Part shown: positions 254-11,198 of the stretch, one piece after another | Numbering within the stretch: position 1 is the first letter of the stretch | How the letters are laid out: each line of letters begins with the position of its first letter | Assembly: GCF_013407145.1 (NCBI RefSeq) | Contig: NZ_CP026993.1 | Coordinates: forward strand, 1,262,590 to 1,326,589 | Reading direction: 5' to 3' | Length of the DNA: 64,000 nucleotides | Source of the DNA: Nitrosopumilus cobalaminigenes | Lineage (GTDB): Archaea; Thermoproteota; Nitrososphaeria; Nitrososphaerales; Nitrosopumilaceae | Program-made: the position numbers and the translations under genes | The notes under the pieces: generated by a model | Seen by the model: only the letters and a program-made list of their open reading frames with translations | Told to the model about the DNA's origin: nothing | Databases searched by the model: none

Positions 254-754
254 ATGGCATCAAAAAAAGGAATAGCTGTAACTGCAATTATTTTGGCTGC
301 AATTACAGGTGCAAGTTTTTTGTTGTGGATTGTTCCACAGGATGTCGAGACAACTTTTGTTGTAACAGATTATGAAAATTATTTGGATGGAGTAAAAAAC
401 ATCCATGAAGTCTTAGAAGAATCAATAGATTTGGAATATCAAAATCTACAAACAGGCAAAATTTCTCCACAAGATTACATTGCAGTAACTGAGGTGACAT
501 CATCTCAAGTAACTACACAGATAAGCGAATTTGTAACTTCAAAACCATCAGAAGAATGGCAAGTAAGTTACATCAATTACATGGAAGCCATGAAGTCCTT
601 TAATTCATACATTATAGAGACAAAAGTCTTAGCCAATATGATTGAAAATGAAAGCACTGAAGAGAAAATGAATGAAGTCATTGAGAGGATTCAATCATTA
701 AAGAGCGAATCTGGAGAATTCGTAAAAATCTCTGATCAGTCAAGACCAGGCTAG
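254..754 (+). CDS. Membrane-anchored protein of unknown function
   Basis: I do not recognise this 166-residue protein. A single hydrophobic segment at about residues 7-27 follows a short basic N-terminus (MASKKG), so it is likely anchored in the cytoplasmic membrane. The remaining ~135 residues would face outside. They are acidic, lack cysteine and are predicted helical (for example YLDGVKNIHEVLEES). The ATG fits the leaderless promoter just upstream. It is followed 71 nt later by a DUF373 membrane protein on the same strand, which has its own TATA-like element, so the two are probably separate units. Confidence 0.75.
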   Translation: MASKKGIAVTAIILAAITGASFLLWIVPQDVETTFVVTDYENYLDGVKNIHEVLEESIDLEYQNLQTGKISPQDYIAVTEVTSSQVTTQISEFVTSKPSEEWQVSYINYMEAMKSFNSYIIETKVLANMIENESTEEKMNEVIERIQSLKSESGEFVKISDQSRPG

Positions 755-825
755 CCTCAAAACCGAATTTTACTATTGATATTTGTTGGAAATCGTTAAA
801 AACCAATTTTGTATAAAAAATTAGA

Positions 826-1971
826 ATGTCTCAACATACAGGTAAAGTTGAAAAAGATGTCAACGCATCTACAGCCAACAAATTACTAGTAATTTGCATT
901 GATAGAGATAACGATGTGGGCGAAAAAGCAGGAATCATAACCCCAGTAATAGGAAGAGATGCATGTATTGAGGCAGCCCAAAGATTAGCTTTGGAAGATC
1001 CAGAAGATGCGGATTCAAATTCAATTTTTGCAGCAATCAAAACGTATGAGGATTTAATCAGTAAAGGATACCAAGTAGAAGTTGTTACTGTTGCAGGAGT
1101 TAAAAATAGAGGCGTTCAAGCAGATGAAAAAATTCTATCTGAAACAAGAACAGTTTTAGAAAAATTTTCTGCAAATGGTGCAGTTATTGTTTCAGATGGT
1201 GAAGATGACGAGAGTGTTATTCCAGTTATCCAAAATGTACTTCCAGTTGTATCAGTTCAACGTGTGGTAATGAAAGTTAGTAGAAGTGTAGAATATTCGT
1301 ATGCAGTATTTGGTAAATATCTAAAAATGCTTGCATATGATTCAAAATATTCAAAATTCTTTTTAGGAGTTCCAGGTATTCTTTTGTTAATTGGTGGTGT
1401 TGCAACAGTATTTGGTTATACTGCAGAAATATTTGCAGTACTTGTAAGTATTCTAGGTGGAGCATTTTTGATTAGAGCATTTGATATTGATAGAGTATGG
1501 TCAAGCTGGTCAAAACCAACGCCGATGGGTTTTATCAGAATGTTTACTATGGTTGCAGGAGTATTACTAATTTTGTCATCAGTACCAGCTGGAGTAAGTG
1601 CTGTTGATTCAGAATTAATAAAATCTGATTCACCATTCATTTCAATAATTACAGACAAAGTAATTGTAGGACAGTTTGTATCTGGCGCAATACCAATTTT
1701 ATGGATTGGTATGGGTTCCATATTTGCTGGAACATTACTAAGTAATTGGATTGGAGGAATTCCAAGACAAATTAGTGATATTTTAAGAATAATTGTTTTA
1801 GGTGCCCTATACCCAACAGTTTTGCAATTTACCAAAATAATGATTAACGATGAACCTTCATTTACCTTAATTCCTCCTCTACTAGGAGGATTAGCAGCCA
1901 CATTGATTTCAGCCACAATTCTATTCAAAAAATACAGAAAACATAAAGATCAAGAAATGATATCAGACTAA
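826..1971 (+). CDS. DUF373 family membrane protein
   Basis: This 381-residue protein has a soluble N-terminal half (about 1-165) and a membrane half with several helices (about 175-365). The N-terminal pattern LLVICIDRDNDVGEKAGI, followed by an acidic ALEDPEDADSN stretch and VIVSDGEDDE, is the signature I associate with archaeal DUF373 (COG2237). That family is widespread in archaea and its biochemical role is not known. A TATA-like GTTAAAAAC sits about 26 nt before the ATG, supporting this start. Family assignment is confident; function is unknown. Confidence 0.85.
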   Translation: MSQHTGKVEKDVNASTANKLLVICIDRDNDVGEKAGIITPVIGRDACIEAAQRLALEDPEDADSNSIFAAIKTYEDLISKGYQVEVVTVAGVKNRGVQADEKILSETRTVLEKFSANGAVIVSDGEDDESVIPVIQNVLPVVSVQRVVMKVSRSVEYSYAVFGKYLKMLAYDSKYSKFFLGVPGILLLIGGVATVFGYTAEIFAVLVSILGGAFLIRAFDIDRVWSSWSKPTPMGFIRMFTMVAGVLLILSSVPAGVSAVDSELIKSDSPFISIITDKVIVGQFVSGAIPILWIGMGSIFAGTLLSNWIGGIPRQISDILRIIVLGALYPTVLQFTKIMINDEPSFTLIPPLLGGLAATLISATILFKKYRKHKDQEMISD

Positions 1972-2058
1972 ACCCATTTCAGCATACATCAATTGGACTA
2001 ATTTTTGAAAAACACTGATATCTTCAATCATGCATGAATCATCAAGTGGTGATAAGAG

Positions 2059-2850
2059 ATTAGTAAGATCAAAGATTTAGTATTTCAGCTATCAGGTCTC
2101 TACAAAATTTATGGAAAAAGACTAGAAAGTGAAATTCAAAATGGAGACATTCCAAATCATGTTGCTTTAATTTTGGATGGGAATAGAAGATGGGCTAAAA
2201 GACATCTATCTATGCCAAAAAAAGGACATTGGAAAGGTGCTGATGCCGTAGAAAATCTTCTTGATTGGTGTGAAGAATTTGATATCAAAATTGTAACTTT
2301 GTATGCATTATCAGCAGAAAATCTAGATAGAAATGATGAAGAATTAGAATATCTCTATGAATTAATTCGAATGCGATTAGAAAAATTATACAATGATCCT
2401 AGAATTCATCGAAGCAAGATGAGAGTGAAGGGAATTGGAAGAATTGAATTACTTCCAGATTCCATTAAAGAAATTTTAAAACGATTAGATGATGCAACCA
2501 AAGATTATGATAATCATTTTCTAAATATTGCACTGGCATATGGGGGACAAAATGAATTGGTAGATGCAGTGAAAAAAATTGGAGACAAAATCAAAGATGG
2601 TTCACTTGATGTAAAAGACATTGACAAAAAAGAGATTGAGTCAAATCTTTACACATCTCATTTACCACAATCATCTCCAGATATGGTGTTACGAACTTCA
2701 GGAGAAAAGAGATTGAGTGGATTTTTAATGTGGCAAAGTGCCTATAGTGAATTAGTCTTTATGGATATTTTTTGGCCTGAATTTAGAAAAATAGATTTAA
2801 TGAGGGCAATTAGAACATATCAGGAAAGGAAGAGAAGATTAGGTAAATGA
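2059..2850 (+). CDS. uppS: Polyprenyl diphosphate synthase (cis-prenyltransferase)
   Basis: This cis-prenyltransferase makes long-chain polyprenyl diphosphate from isopentenyl diphosphate, the precursor of the dolichol-type lipid carrier used in archaeal glycosylation. Family motifs are all present: HVALILDGNRRWA (catalytic Asp), SAENLDR, and RTSGEKRLSGFLMWQ. The first canonical start (TTG 2173) falls inside the first motif and would remove its beta strand. The frame upstream encodes family-like sequence (LYKIYGKRLESEIQNG) back to a stop at 2053 but has no ATG, GTG or TTG. I therefore place the start tentatively at ATT 2059; ATC 2068 is another option. A frameshift near 2070 is also possible. 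The stop overlaps the next start by 4 nt. Confidence 0.85.
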   Translation: MSKIKDLVFQLSGLYKIYGKRLESEIQNGDIPNHVALILDGNRRWAKRHLSMPKKGHWKGADAVENLLDWCEEFDIKIVTLYALSAENLDRNDEELEYLYELIRMRLEKLYNDPRIHRSKMRVKGIGRIELLPDSIKEILKRLDDATKDYDNHFLNIALAYGGQNELVDAVKKIGDKIKDGSLDVKDIDKKEIESNLYTSHLPQSSPDMVLRTSGEKRLSGFLMWQSAYSELVFMDIFWPEFRKIDLMRAIRTYQERKRRLGK

Positions 2851-8076: not shown

Positions 8077-8673
8077 TTGAAAGTAGATTGCGATAGCGAA
8101 GGAATTGAAAAGGCCATACAAATTATTAATCATGGAGGAATTGTAGTCTATCCAACAGATACAGTTTATGGAATAGGATGTAATCCATTTGATAAAGAAT
8201 CAGTAAAAAAAATCTATAAAATTAAATCTAGAGATATTTCAAAATTAGTTCCAGTTTTAACATATTCTCTAAAAACAGCTGAAAAAATTGTTGAGTTTGA
8301 TAAAATTTCAAGAAAATTAGTCGAAAAGTTTTGGCCAGGACCATTAACATTAATTTTAAAACTAACTAATGAAAAAATTAAAGAATCATTACATTTAGAA
8401 AACAAAATTGCAGTTAGAGTACCAAATCACAAATGTACATTAGAATTACTGAAAAAATGTGAATTTCTTGTCGGTACTAGTGCAAATGTTTCAGGAGATC
8501 AACCACATACAAATCCAAAAGAATGTATGAAAAAATTACAAGATTATGATATTTTTGTTGATGGGGGGATAATTCAAAGTCAAGGAGAATCAACAATAAT
8601 TGAAATAGAAAATAATGAGATCAAAATTATCCGGGAAGGTTCTTTAACCAAAGAAGAAATTTTAGAAATATGA
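8077..8673 (+). CDS. tsaC: Threonylcarbamoyl-AMP synthase (YrdC/TsaC/Sua5)
   Basis: A 198-residue YrdC-domain enzyme that makes threonylcarbamoyl-AMP from threonine, bicarbonate and ATP, the first step of the universal tRNA t6A37 modification. Diagnostic motifs are VYPTDTVYGIGC near the N-terminus, KFWPGPLTLIL, and GTSANVSGDQPHT. It lacks the C-terminal Sua5 domain. The start is TTG 8077. The stop overlaps the next start by 4 nt. A KEOPS-subunit fusion lies immediately downstream on the opposite strand, so two t6A genes cluster here. Confidence 0.92.
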   Translation: MKVDCDSEGIEKAIQIINHGGIVVYPTDTVYGIGCNPFDKESVKKIYKIKSRDISKLVPVLTYSLKTAEKIVEFDKISRKLVEKFWPGPLTLILKLTNEKIKESLHLENKIAVRVPNHKCTLELLKKCEFLVGTSANVSGDQPHTNPKECMKKLQDYDIFVDGGIIQSQGESTIIEIENNEIKIIREGSLTKEEILEI

Positions 8674-9191
8674 ATCTGATAATAACTTGTCCAAGGCATC
8701 TCGAACCTGATACTGAAGATGAATTAAAGGATATTTTAGAAGAATTTGGAGATACAGATCTCAAAGTTACGATTACCAGTATGTCAGGCATTCTAACTGC
8801 TGAAACTAAACTAGATCCTGTTGAAGTTGTAAGAAAAATGAAAGAAATGCTTCTAGATGAACCATGGAGTATAAGATATTGTAAAAGAGTAATTCCCATA
8901 CAGAAAGTAATTGAATCAAACATAGACGAAATTGAAAAAACTGTTGATGAATTATCTAATCAAATTTCAGAAGAAGAGACATATCGAATTTCAATTGAGA
9001 AAAGAAACTCAGATTTGTCAAGTAAAGAGATAATTACAAAAATTGCAGATAAAATCAAAAATAAAGTATCATTAGAATTTCCAGACAAGATTCTATTAAT
9101 CGAAATTTTAGGAAGCAAAACAGGTGTTTCTATCCTAAAAAAATCAGATATTCTAAGTACAGAAAAAACAAAACGAAGTATGTCAGAGTAA
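8670..9191 (+). CDS. THUMP-domain protein (Tan1-like)
   Basis: A 173-residue THUMP-domain protein. The N-terminal MNLIITCPRHLEPDTEDEL and the central RYCKRVIPIQKVIES are characteristic of the Tan1/THUMPD1 group, which presents tRNA to the N4-acetylcytidine acetyltransferase. The C-terminal SKEIITKIADKIKNKV leads into the last strand of the THUMP fold. There is no catalytic domain. It is coupled to tsaC by a 4-nt overlap, consistent with a tRNA modification role, and its 3' end overlaps the convergent gene by 9 nt. Confidence 0.82.
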   Translation: MNLIITCPRHLEPDTEDELKDILEEFGDTDLKVTITSMSGILTAETKLDPVEVVRKMKEMLLDEPWSIRYCKRVIPIQKVIESNIDEIEKTVDELSNQISEEETYRISIEKRNSDLSSKEIITKIADKIKNKVSLEFPDKILLIEILGSKTGVSILKKSDILSTEKTKRSMSE

Positions 9192-9956
9192 TACTGCTGC
9201 TTTTTCTATCAAAATATCAGCCAAAGGATTTTTTGAATTTATTGAATCATAGTGTTTTTTTGTAATTTTAAAATGTTTTTTTAGATATTGTTCATTATTT
9301 TTTATGAATAAATTAATTGAAAGGGGTTTTAACTCAAGATATAATGAATCCAGATTTTTCTTATTTCCAATTCCAATCAACATAAAATTAGTTTTTGGTT
9401 TTACTCCCACATTTTTTATTGCATCAGAAATTTGGGTAGATATAGCAAATCTCATAAGAATATCTGTTTCAAGTTTATTTGAAAGCAATACATTATTTTT
9501 TTTAGATTCAAATGACAATGAAATAATTTTTTTTAGATGATAATTATTTAGAACAAAGTTACTAGATATGGCCTGAATTAGAATTTTAGGGTATTTTTTT
9601 CTAAGATCATCAAGAAATTTAACATCAATTGTTTTGTCACCTTTAATTTCGATTACCTGAATTTGTTTTTTAGATAACTCAAAAGTAGATTTTTTTGATG
9701 CTCCACCATGAATTATTGGAATTATGCTTACTAGATCATTATCTTTTATTGTTGTAGATTTACCATTCATTGCAGAAGAATCAGCCCCATTAATTGCGAT
9801 TAAAACATTTTCAGTATCAAGTTCAGGGGTGTCTTTAGGTTTTAGATCTATTAGTAATGTGATTAATTCTTGAATCGATATATTTGATTTATCGATTTTT
9901 AATTGTTCATCTGGAAAAGATTTTTTTGCTCCACCAACAAATTTGACAGTAAACAT
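9183..9956 (-). CDS. Fusion of ubiquitin-like (MoaD/Urm1/SAMP) domain and KEOPS subunit Cgi121
   Basis: A 257-residue two-domain protein. Residues 1-85 read as a beta-grasp fold of the MoaD/ThiS/SAMP/Urm1 type: MFTVKFVGGA, a helix (IQELITLLIDL), VLIAINGAD, then LVSIIPIIHGG, ending in the family's Gly-Gly at 84-85. In stand-alone homologues this pair is the C-terminus and is adenylated. Here it runs on into residues ~95-257, which match Cgi121, the KEOPS subunit that holds the tRNA CCA end (QAISSNFVLNNYHLKKII; ILMRFAISTQISDAIKNVGV). The neighbour tsaC acts in the same t6A pathway. Cleavage after GG is possible but unproven. Confidence 0.75.
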   Translation of the reverse strand: MFTVKFVGGAKKSFPDEQLKIDKSNISIQELITLLIDLKPKDTPELDTENVLIAINGADSSAMNGKSTTIKDNDLVSIIPIIHGGASKKSTFELSKKQIQVIEIKGDKTIDVKFLDDLRKKYPKILIQAISSNFVLNNYHLKKIISLSFESKKNNVLLSNKLETDILMRFAISTQISDAIKNVGVKPKTNFMLIGIGNKKNLDSLYLELKPLSINLFIKNNEQYLKKHFKITKKHYDSINSKNPLADILIEKAAVLL

Positions 9957-9997: not shown

Positions 9998-10348
9998 TTA
10001 TTCAGTTTTTTCTTCTGTAATTTCAGAAGATTCTTCCTCAGAAGTTGCTTCTATGACAGTTTCTGGTACTTCTTCGGTAGTAGTTGTATCTTCAGTAAGT
10101 TCAATTTCAGATTGTTCTTCAGTTTGTTGTTCTGCTTTAGAAGCTTCAATACGGGCTTGCTTTGCTTTTTCTTCACGAATCTCTTTTTTGATAAATTTTG
10201 TAATATAACCTGCAATTTCATTTTTCAATCCTTTTGAGCGGACAATAGAAACTTGATCTAAGGCTTTTTTATTATCAACGAAATCTTCTCCAAATTTTGA
10301 CTTGTGTTCATCTAGAACTTCATATGAGAGTCGTTTTATTCTATCCAC
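9998..10348 (-). CDS. rps17e: 30S ribosomal protein S17e with acidic tail
   Basis: Residues 1-65 match archaeal/eukaryotic S17e: MDRIKRLSYEVLDEHKSKF, the NKKALDQV stretch, and KNEIAGYITKFIKKE. The family core is about 65 residues. This protein adds ~50 residues, first a basic helix and then a long Glu/Thr-rich acidic tail (EEQSEIELTEDTTTTEE). S11 in this window has an acidic extension at its N-terminus, so the feature may be general in this organism. Confidence 0.85.
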   Translation of the reverse strand: MDRIKRLSYEVLDEHKSKFGEDFVDNKKALDQVSIVRSKGLKNEIAGYITKFIKKEIREEKAKQARIEASKAEQQTEEQSEIELTEDTTTTEEVPETVIEATSEEESSEITEEKTE

Positions 10349-10379: not shown

Positions 10380-11198
10380 CTATATTCCTAGAAATGTATT
10401 AGAATTCTTTTCCAACATAGCAGTCATCTCATCAAAGGATTTTCCTAGAATTTTTGAAGCACAAAAAACAACGCTAGGAATAAAGCTAATTTGTCCTGAT
10501 TTCATTTCAAAACATCTAGAAAATCTTACTGGACCATCAGTTTCAACAAGGATTTGAGATTCATTGGTTTTTGACAACAAAGTTTGTTTGTCATTTGCAT
10601 ATATCATAACAGGTCCAAAGGAAACAAAAAATCCCATATCCATGGCTCGAGCAAGTTGTTTTTTACTACCATCAAACCAGTGGAGCAAGGCATGTTTCGT
10701 ATCATAAGAAGTCATAATTTCAAAAACATCATCCAAATTTTTTCTAGAATGAATTGAAACGGGTTTGTTAAATTTTTCTGCATAAGATAGTAATGTTTCA
10801 AATACATGATTTTGTTTTTTGACATCATCATCTCCATTAACATATGTTGGATCTAAACCAATTTCCCCTATACCAGAAAGTTTTGAATGATTATCCTCAA
10901 TTAATTTAGATATTTTTTCAATTTCTTCATTGGCACATTCTGGATGAATTCCAATAAATGGTAAAACAAGATCACTTTTAGTTGCAAGTTCTAAAGTTTG
11001 TAATGAATTGTTATAATCCATTGAAACACAACATGCTTTAATTTTTAAAAACTCCATTTGTTTTAAGATAAATTCCATGTCTGGCACATATGCAGGATCT
11101 GACAAATGTATGTGAGAATCAAAATACCAAGACATTTCTTTATCAATTCTTGAAATAGTCTGTATAAATCGATTCCTTAGTGATATTTTTTCACTCAT
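10380..11198 (-). CDS. TatD-family metal-dependent hydrolase
   Basis: A 272-residue TIM-barrel hydrolase of the TatD family, metal-dependent DNases also linked to RNA processing. The metal ligands are visible: DSHIHL at about residue 27, [23 protein letters not shown], and VETDGP near the C-terminus. The frame is open from an ATG at 11198. An ATG at 11135 ([11 protein letters not shown]) gives the typical family start, and I regard it as equally likely. It is divergent from the histone gene by 33 nt. Confidence 0.85.

Follow-up and report, generated by a model that had tools for sequence, protein, structure and literature searches.

A ubiquitin-like domain joined to the KEOPS subunit Cgi121 in Nitrosopumilus: a labile gene fusion and candidate precursor for cleavage after Gly-Gly

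Introduction

A Gly-Gly motif held inside a peptide bond does not allow a ubiquitin-like (Ubl) protein to be activated by E1, thiocarboxylated or conjugated. In the stretch of DNA of the ammonia-oxidising archaeon Nitrosopumilus cobalaminigenes analysed here (64,000 nucleotides of contig NZ_CP026993.1, hereafter the window), one gene encodes a Ubl domain whose Gly-Gly, residues 84-85, is followed in the encoded protein by 172 further residues, those of Cgi121, a subunit of the essential tRNA-modifying complex KEOPS. The free C-terminal Gly-Gly of the Urm1/SAMP family is thus obtained only if this protein is cleaved, and the locus raises the question of whether the fusion is a precursor or works as it is. 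An initial annotation of the sequence had proposed both: a link between sulfur transfer or protein modification and t6A synthesis, or a precursor cleaved after the Gly-Gly.

The fusion itself is already known, which the initial annotation missed. Makarova and Koonin described it in 2010 in all Thaumarchaea then sequenced, reported ribosomal protein S17e as its neighbour and proposed that KEOPS is controlled by SAMPylation (PMC2948915). In the literature searched we found no experimental follow-up of that hypothesis, and cleavage after the Gly-Gly seems not to have been tested experimentally by anyone so far. What the present analysis adds is the lability of the fusion and a circumstantial case for its processing.

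Results

A Urm1/SAMP-type domain and a Cgi121 domain meet at an HGG hinge

When residues 1-86 were scanned alone, the part at residues 5-85 matched the Pfam families ThiS (PF02597) at 37.9 bits against a cut-off of 22.5 and Urm1 (PF09138) at 25.6 bits against 21.8. The remainder of the protein matched CGI-121 (PF08617; 31.8 bits, cut-off 25), and the NCBIfam equivalog 'KEOPS complex subunit Cgi121' (NF011465) was matched at 157 bits, with a cut-off of 40. The Ubl part fell below the cut-offs of all NCBIfam Ubl models, reaching 28.3 of the 70 bits set for the Urm1_like equivalog, and we therefore give it no single subfamily name. A sequence search of the PDB returned as its top match, weak at E 0.0066, the Urm1 of S. 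solfataricus (4wwm), which also has an HGG end.

The AlphaFold2 model, made with 19 fused homologues, had a mean pLDDT of 88.6, and its sole segment below 50 was residues 82-85, the HGG hinge; its pTM was 0.65, so the relative placement of the Ubl and Cgi121 domains is not to be trusted. Residues 1-85 were modelled as a beta-grasp. In Foldseek searches, the N-terminal part matched structures of Urm1 and SAMP1, whereas the matches of the C-terminal part were to Cgi121 as it occurs in complexes with Bud32 and in KEOPS. Fold and profile together place the two parts in the Urm1/SAMP/MoaD-ThiS family and in Cgi121, respectively, in line with the initial annotation, which had made its reading depend on the beta-grasp and on the Cgi121 match. 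The Gly-Gly that it had read is also where it was placed, at the end of an HGG (Table 1).

Kae1 and Bud32 are reported to have orthologues in all archaea (PMC2948915), and Cgi121 holds the CCA end of tRNA in other species (PMC7718258); by analogy, we assume that the Cgi121 of the fusion would do the same.

Table 1. Features of the fusion locus, in positions of the window, and the Ubl-E1 gene elsewhere in the genome
Feature	Position	Strand	Details and evidence
Ubl-Cgi121 fusion gene	9183..9956	-	257 aa, ATG start, single open frame
Ubiquitin-like (ThiS/Urm1-type) beta-grasp domain, residues 1-85	9702..9956	-	PF02597 and PF09138 above cut-off; Urm1/SAMP1 structural matches
HGG, residues 83-85, internal Gly-Gly; presumed cleavage point after 85	9702..9710	-	Conservation, model pLDDT
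Short variable linker, residues 86-88	9693..9701	-	Columns after the Gly-Gly average 27.5% identity
Cgi121 domain, residues 89-257	9186..9692	-	PF08617 and NF011465 above cut-off; Foldseek matches to Cgi121 in KEOPS
Ribosomal protein S17e, same-strand upstream neighbour of the fusion	9998..10348	-	PF00833 2.3e-18
TatD-like DNase gene, next upstream neighbour after S17e	10380..11198	-	PF01026; position conserved
THUMP-domain protein, convergent, 9-base overlap with the end of the fusion gene	8670..9191	+	PF02926
TsaC/Sua5-type threonylcarbamoyl-AMP synthase (t6A pathway)	8077..8673	+	PF01300 2.4e-54
Ubl-E1 fusion, outside the window	G000:C1:1363043-1364371 (L307 5541-6872)	-	

The fusion sits in a conserved neighbourhood

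A scan with one genome per species yielded 80 loci that match the fusion practically from end to end, nearly all of them named Nitrosopumilus, Nitrosarchaeum or Thaumarchaeota. In 78 of the 80 named loci, no more than 300 nt separate the Ubl from an S17e gene upstream, and the THUMP gene is convergent with and adjacent to the fusion in all 80. The gene order TatD, S17e, Ubl, Cgi121, facing convergent THUMP and TsaC genes, is kept far beyond the fused lineages. The gene tsaC, described in the initial annotation as adjoining the fusion, is indeed near it, but the THUMP-domain gene stands between the two. THUMP is the sole domain recognised in the intervening protein, which is possibly a further tRNA-modification partner.

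The HGG border is conserved and the residues behind it are not

HGG is present at the border in 107 of 108 distinct fusions and is invariant in the 19 that were aligned; the residue after it is Ser in 65 of the 108 and Ala in 24. Mean identity is 81% in the last 10 Ubl columns and 27.5% in the 11 columns after the Gly-Gly. Such a sharp drop, together with the low-confidence hinge of the model, is what a cut site should show. Binding of a partner, with no cleavage involved, could also account for the conserved HGG. Mean identity over the whole domain is 55% for the Ubl and 46% for Cgi121, and dN/dS in six close pairs was 0.06-0.18 for the Ubl and 0.10-0.20 for Cgi121; purifying selection thus acts on the Ubl domain in these pairs, and the Ubl is, if anything, more constrained than Cgi121.

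The sole fusion without HGG (L217 of genome G379, 688-1614, plus strand) reads LSTLHCSAF at the border and comes from a genome that is 82% complete; it is either degenerate or misassembled.

We also considered whether a free Cgi121 could be made from an internal start. This was rejected for the window's gene, where none of the 20 codons past the HGG is an ATG, GTG or TTG, and an in-frame start within that distance is absent in 62 of the 108 fusions. The Gly-Gly codons resemble a Shine-Dalgarno site, and some fusions, L205 and L207 among them, have an in-frame start after the HGG; in such fusions an internal Cgi121 start is possible.

Fused and split forms alternate across the order

The same fusion occurs in more than 100 related genomes, and for that reason assembly error was rejected as its origin. 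The initial annotation had asked whether it is general among relatives. It is not: across the order, a profile of the fusion found the gene fused and at full length in the family to which the window belongs and in certain members of family f3, and in most other families it found the Ubl and cgi121 as adjacent gene pairs, so that many relatives have two genes (f1, f2 and f3 presumably being Nitrosopumilaceae, Nitrosocaldaceae and Nitrososphaeraceae). Most non-fused Ubl genes overlap or abut cgi121. When 55 of them were read, 41 ended exactly at HGG-stop, seven of these at loci without an adjacent Cgi121; 13 had 1-9 residues past the HGG (e.g., HGGCL in family f2), and one, L244, was joined to a phosphoribosyltransferase.

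In the split genes of f2 (L064, L065, L067, L250, L257), the Ubl ends in HGGCL, HGGCI or a longer tail (HGGGCL, HGGCLRYDGEVE) and overlaps cgi121 in another frame; a mature Gly-Gly would need trimming there too. L244 (G375:C62:800-6200; 1997-2836, plus strand), from another family of the order, joins this Ubl to another partner: a xanthine/hypoxanthine phosphoribosyltransferase-like domain follows the HGG, and Cgi121 is the next, overlapping gene.

On an unrooted quick tree built from 71 rows of joined Ubl and Cgi121 sequence (SH-aLRT support only), the fused or split state requires six changes, at least three of which are forced by well supported branches, and genus g132 of family f3 has fused genes intermingled with split ones. 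From this alternation, it seems that either form can stand in for the other. In the window's family, a single fusion and a single reversal, the latter in G061, appear to account for the pattern. This genome belongs to the fused family; its fusion (L063, 2429-2689 and 1919-2428, both on the minus strand) is split by a single TGA, one codon past the Gly-Gly, with a TTG start directly behind the TGA and the Gly-Gly codons forming GGAGGTG ahead of the TTG. The distribution suggests that two adjacent genes were joined to give the fusion. The ancestor most plausibly had an S17e-Ubl-Cgi121 operon, with fusion by stop loss, a direction that we infer on an unrooted tree.

This history bears on two rival explanations. 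In one, the tight S17e-Ubl-Cgi121 operon produced the fusion as a near-neutral accident that gives equal expression only, the two halves being functionally unlinked whether cut or not. The overlap or abutment of the genes in split relatives, where one frameshift or lost stop suffices, and the repeated changes between states both speak for it. We nevertheless regard it as distinctly improbable: the S17e, Ubl and Cgi121 neighbourhood is kept through most of the order, more than expected of unrelated genes, and an accident alone leaves the exposure of the Gly-Gly unexplained.

The other holds that the fusion works uncut, its Ubl serving as a permanent KEOPS docking module that brings E1, thiolase or proteasome to tRNA-bound KEOPS and so couples t6A with sulfur transfer or turnover. 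One fusion is kept in nearly all Nitrosopumilaceae sampled, its linker is very short, and its conserved neighbours are S17e, tsaC and the THUMP gene, all of which would suit such a module; moreover, yeast Cgi121 can hold tRNA by the CCA end outside KEOPS (PMC7718258), and a Urm1-GFP fusion of S. acidocaldarius engages the 20S core (PMC4569737). However, the Gly-Gly would then stay locked in a peptide bond, its strict conservation would need another reason, the fused state varies within genus g132 and was lost in G061, and the hinge of the model shows no sign of a fixed arrangement. A permanent docking module thus strikes us as rather unlikely.

The genome encodes an E1, JAMM-type proteins and a thiolase-like protein

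The window's genome is a single contig, 99% complete. It holds one match to the Cgi121 family and two to the ThiS family, namely the Cgi121 fusion and a Ubl-E1 protein, both of whose Ubl domains carry an internal Gly-Gly. A separate Urm1, which the initial annotation had suggested looking for, was not found by the ThiS profile, both domains being fused. The Ubl-E1 protein (Table 1) provides the E1-type activating enzyme that a Urm1/SAMP-type Ubl calls for, its ThiF domain scoring 247 bits. Its gene abuts a threonine synthase-like PALP gene, a pair kept in the four genomes compared (its own and three relatives), and threonine is also a substrate of t6A synthesis. In genomes G192 and G348, the Ubl and the E1 lie in separate frames. 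The genome further encodes a PP-loop protein with the N-terminal zinc domain of TtuA, whose best match is NcsA/TtuA; this protein appears to be a TtuA/NcsA-like tRNA thiolase.

Two JAMM-type (PF14464) proteins with complete HxHP-x6-S-x2-D (HSHP) motifs, HSHPNSEAYPSNTD and HSHPSGSAEPSVTD, are also encoded. The first resembles the haloarchaeal desampylase at 61.6 bits, below the equivalog cut-off of 130. Features expected of a MoaX-type precursor are thus present: a Ubl followed in frame by a partner, a Gly-Gly kept at the border, and a candidate JAMM protease with an intact catalytic motif.

A desampylase-like JAMM would also serve a further reading, in which the Ubl is a removable inhibitor and the fusion is inactive in KEOPS until JAMM removes it, tying t6A synthesis to protease activity. 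Such control was proposed for SAMP1-linked MoaE, which stays inactive until HvJAMM1 reactivates it (PMC4443979). In that case the linkage blocks the active site, for which Cgi121 offers no parallel evidence, and split relatives manage without such control; we consider this reading very unlikely.

The ThiF family was matched strongly in 24 of 24 single-contig Nitrosopumilaceae genomes scanned and went unmatched in 14 of 110 genomes of this family that are at least 95% complete; the E1-lacking genomes examined retained the full fusion. Loss of E1 with the Gly-Gly kept would argue for an E1-independent role of the Gly-Gly, an argument that we dropped as unsafe. In 16 E1-lacking genomes followed up, which include some with weak ThiF hits below the cut-off, the PALP gene beside E1 was missing in 12 and shortened in the other four, two of these shortened genes sitting at the very first bases of contigs. 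As this neighbour is missing or truncated and ThiF is present in all 24 single-contig genomes, assembly gaps are a simpler explanation than loss, and the apparent absence of E1 is probably missing sequence. A joint loss of the tRNA thiolase and E1 was also considered and rejected, PF01171 matches being present in 42 of 42 genomes tested, with no pattern.

Discussion

Taken together, these results lead us to favour, with some reserve, a Ubl precursor that arose from a fused two-gene operon and is cut after HGG by a JAMM metalloprotease. A Gly-Gly is unusable in a peptide bond, yet the HGG is invariant in the aligned fusions, the genome carries JAMM genes, and close precedents exist; hence our preference. 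Of the two proposals in the initial annotation, the precursor is the better supported, by the invariant HGG and the variable segment behind it, by the Ubl proteins of relatives that stop at HGG, by the genomic JAMM proteins and by published precedents; the cleavage is what we infer from them. The other, a link between sulfur transfer and t6A synthesis, is possible. A more far-reaching reading, an uncut fusion that is a working KEOPS subunit and whose Ubl physically couples E1-driven sulfur transfer or protein tagging to t6A on the same CCA-held tRNA, we hold to be improbable. If it is true, ammonia-oxidising archaea and their relatives would have a tRNA-modification hub of their own.

In the precursor model, the fusion would descend from an operon of two genes, a urm1/samp-like Ubl gene and the cgi121 that followed it, now translated as one protein. 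The fusion protein would be made as a precursor and cut after the HGG by a JAMM metalloprotease, releasing an 85-residue Ubl with a C-terminal Gly-Gly that the genome's Ubl-E1 protein could activate. The activated Ubl would then pass sulfur to the TtuA/NcsA-like tRNA thiolase, modify proteins, or both, and the released Cgi121 would join KEOPS and bind tRNA via its CCA end. That the fusion has lasted so long across Nitrosopumilaceae could, however, point to a function of the joined form in its own right.

Eukaryotic ubiquitin is freed from ribosomal proteins, and a parallel can be drawn for Ubl-Cgi121. If cut after the Gly-Gly, this would be an archaeal ubiquitin-family protein that is synthesised in one chain with a translation-machinery protein and then released by a JAMM protease, and proteolysis would be needed to supply the ThiS-family Ubl found in the genome. 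If uncut, the fusion would physically connect Ubl chemistry with t6A, an essential modification. The split relatives are natural controls, and the 2010 hypothesis is directly testable.

How does the fusion compare with known systems? It is the one described for Thaumarchaea in 2010, with the same lineage and the same S17e neighbour; that paper took it to be conserved in all Thaumarchaea available (PMC2948915), whereas our wider sampling shows separate genes in many families and, within Nitrosopumilaceae, one genome in which the fusion has been split again. The Urm1 of Sulfolobus, our top though weak PDB match, also has a gene associated with S17e but differs in having no fused partner, and Sulfolobales lack Cgi121 (PMC2948915). 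Compared with the Cgi121 of KEOPS, the fusion has the same profile and fold and differs by the 85-residue Ubl in front.

MoaX of Mycobacterium tuberculosis, a MoaD-MoaE fusion, likewise has an N-terminal Ubl, an internal Gly-Gly and a fused partner. That partner, MoaE of molybdopterin synthase, is a direct user of the Ubl, whereas Cgi121 is not, to our knowledge, known to use one. MoaX has a Ser after the Gly-Gly, as do most Ubl-Cgi121 fusions, and is cut at Gly82/Ser83, a cut that is required for its activity (PMC4326299). Among archaea, CsJAMM of Caldiarchaeum cuts SAMP precursors (PMC6043591). In Haloferax, HvJAMM1 cuts the SAMP1-MoaE linear fusion after the Gly-Gly in vivo, and only when the Gly-Gly is present (PMC4443979); that archaeal Ubl fusion was built in the laboratory, whereas the Ubl-Cgi121 fusion is genomic and its protease presumed.
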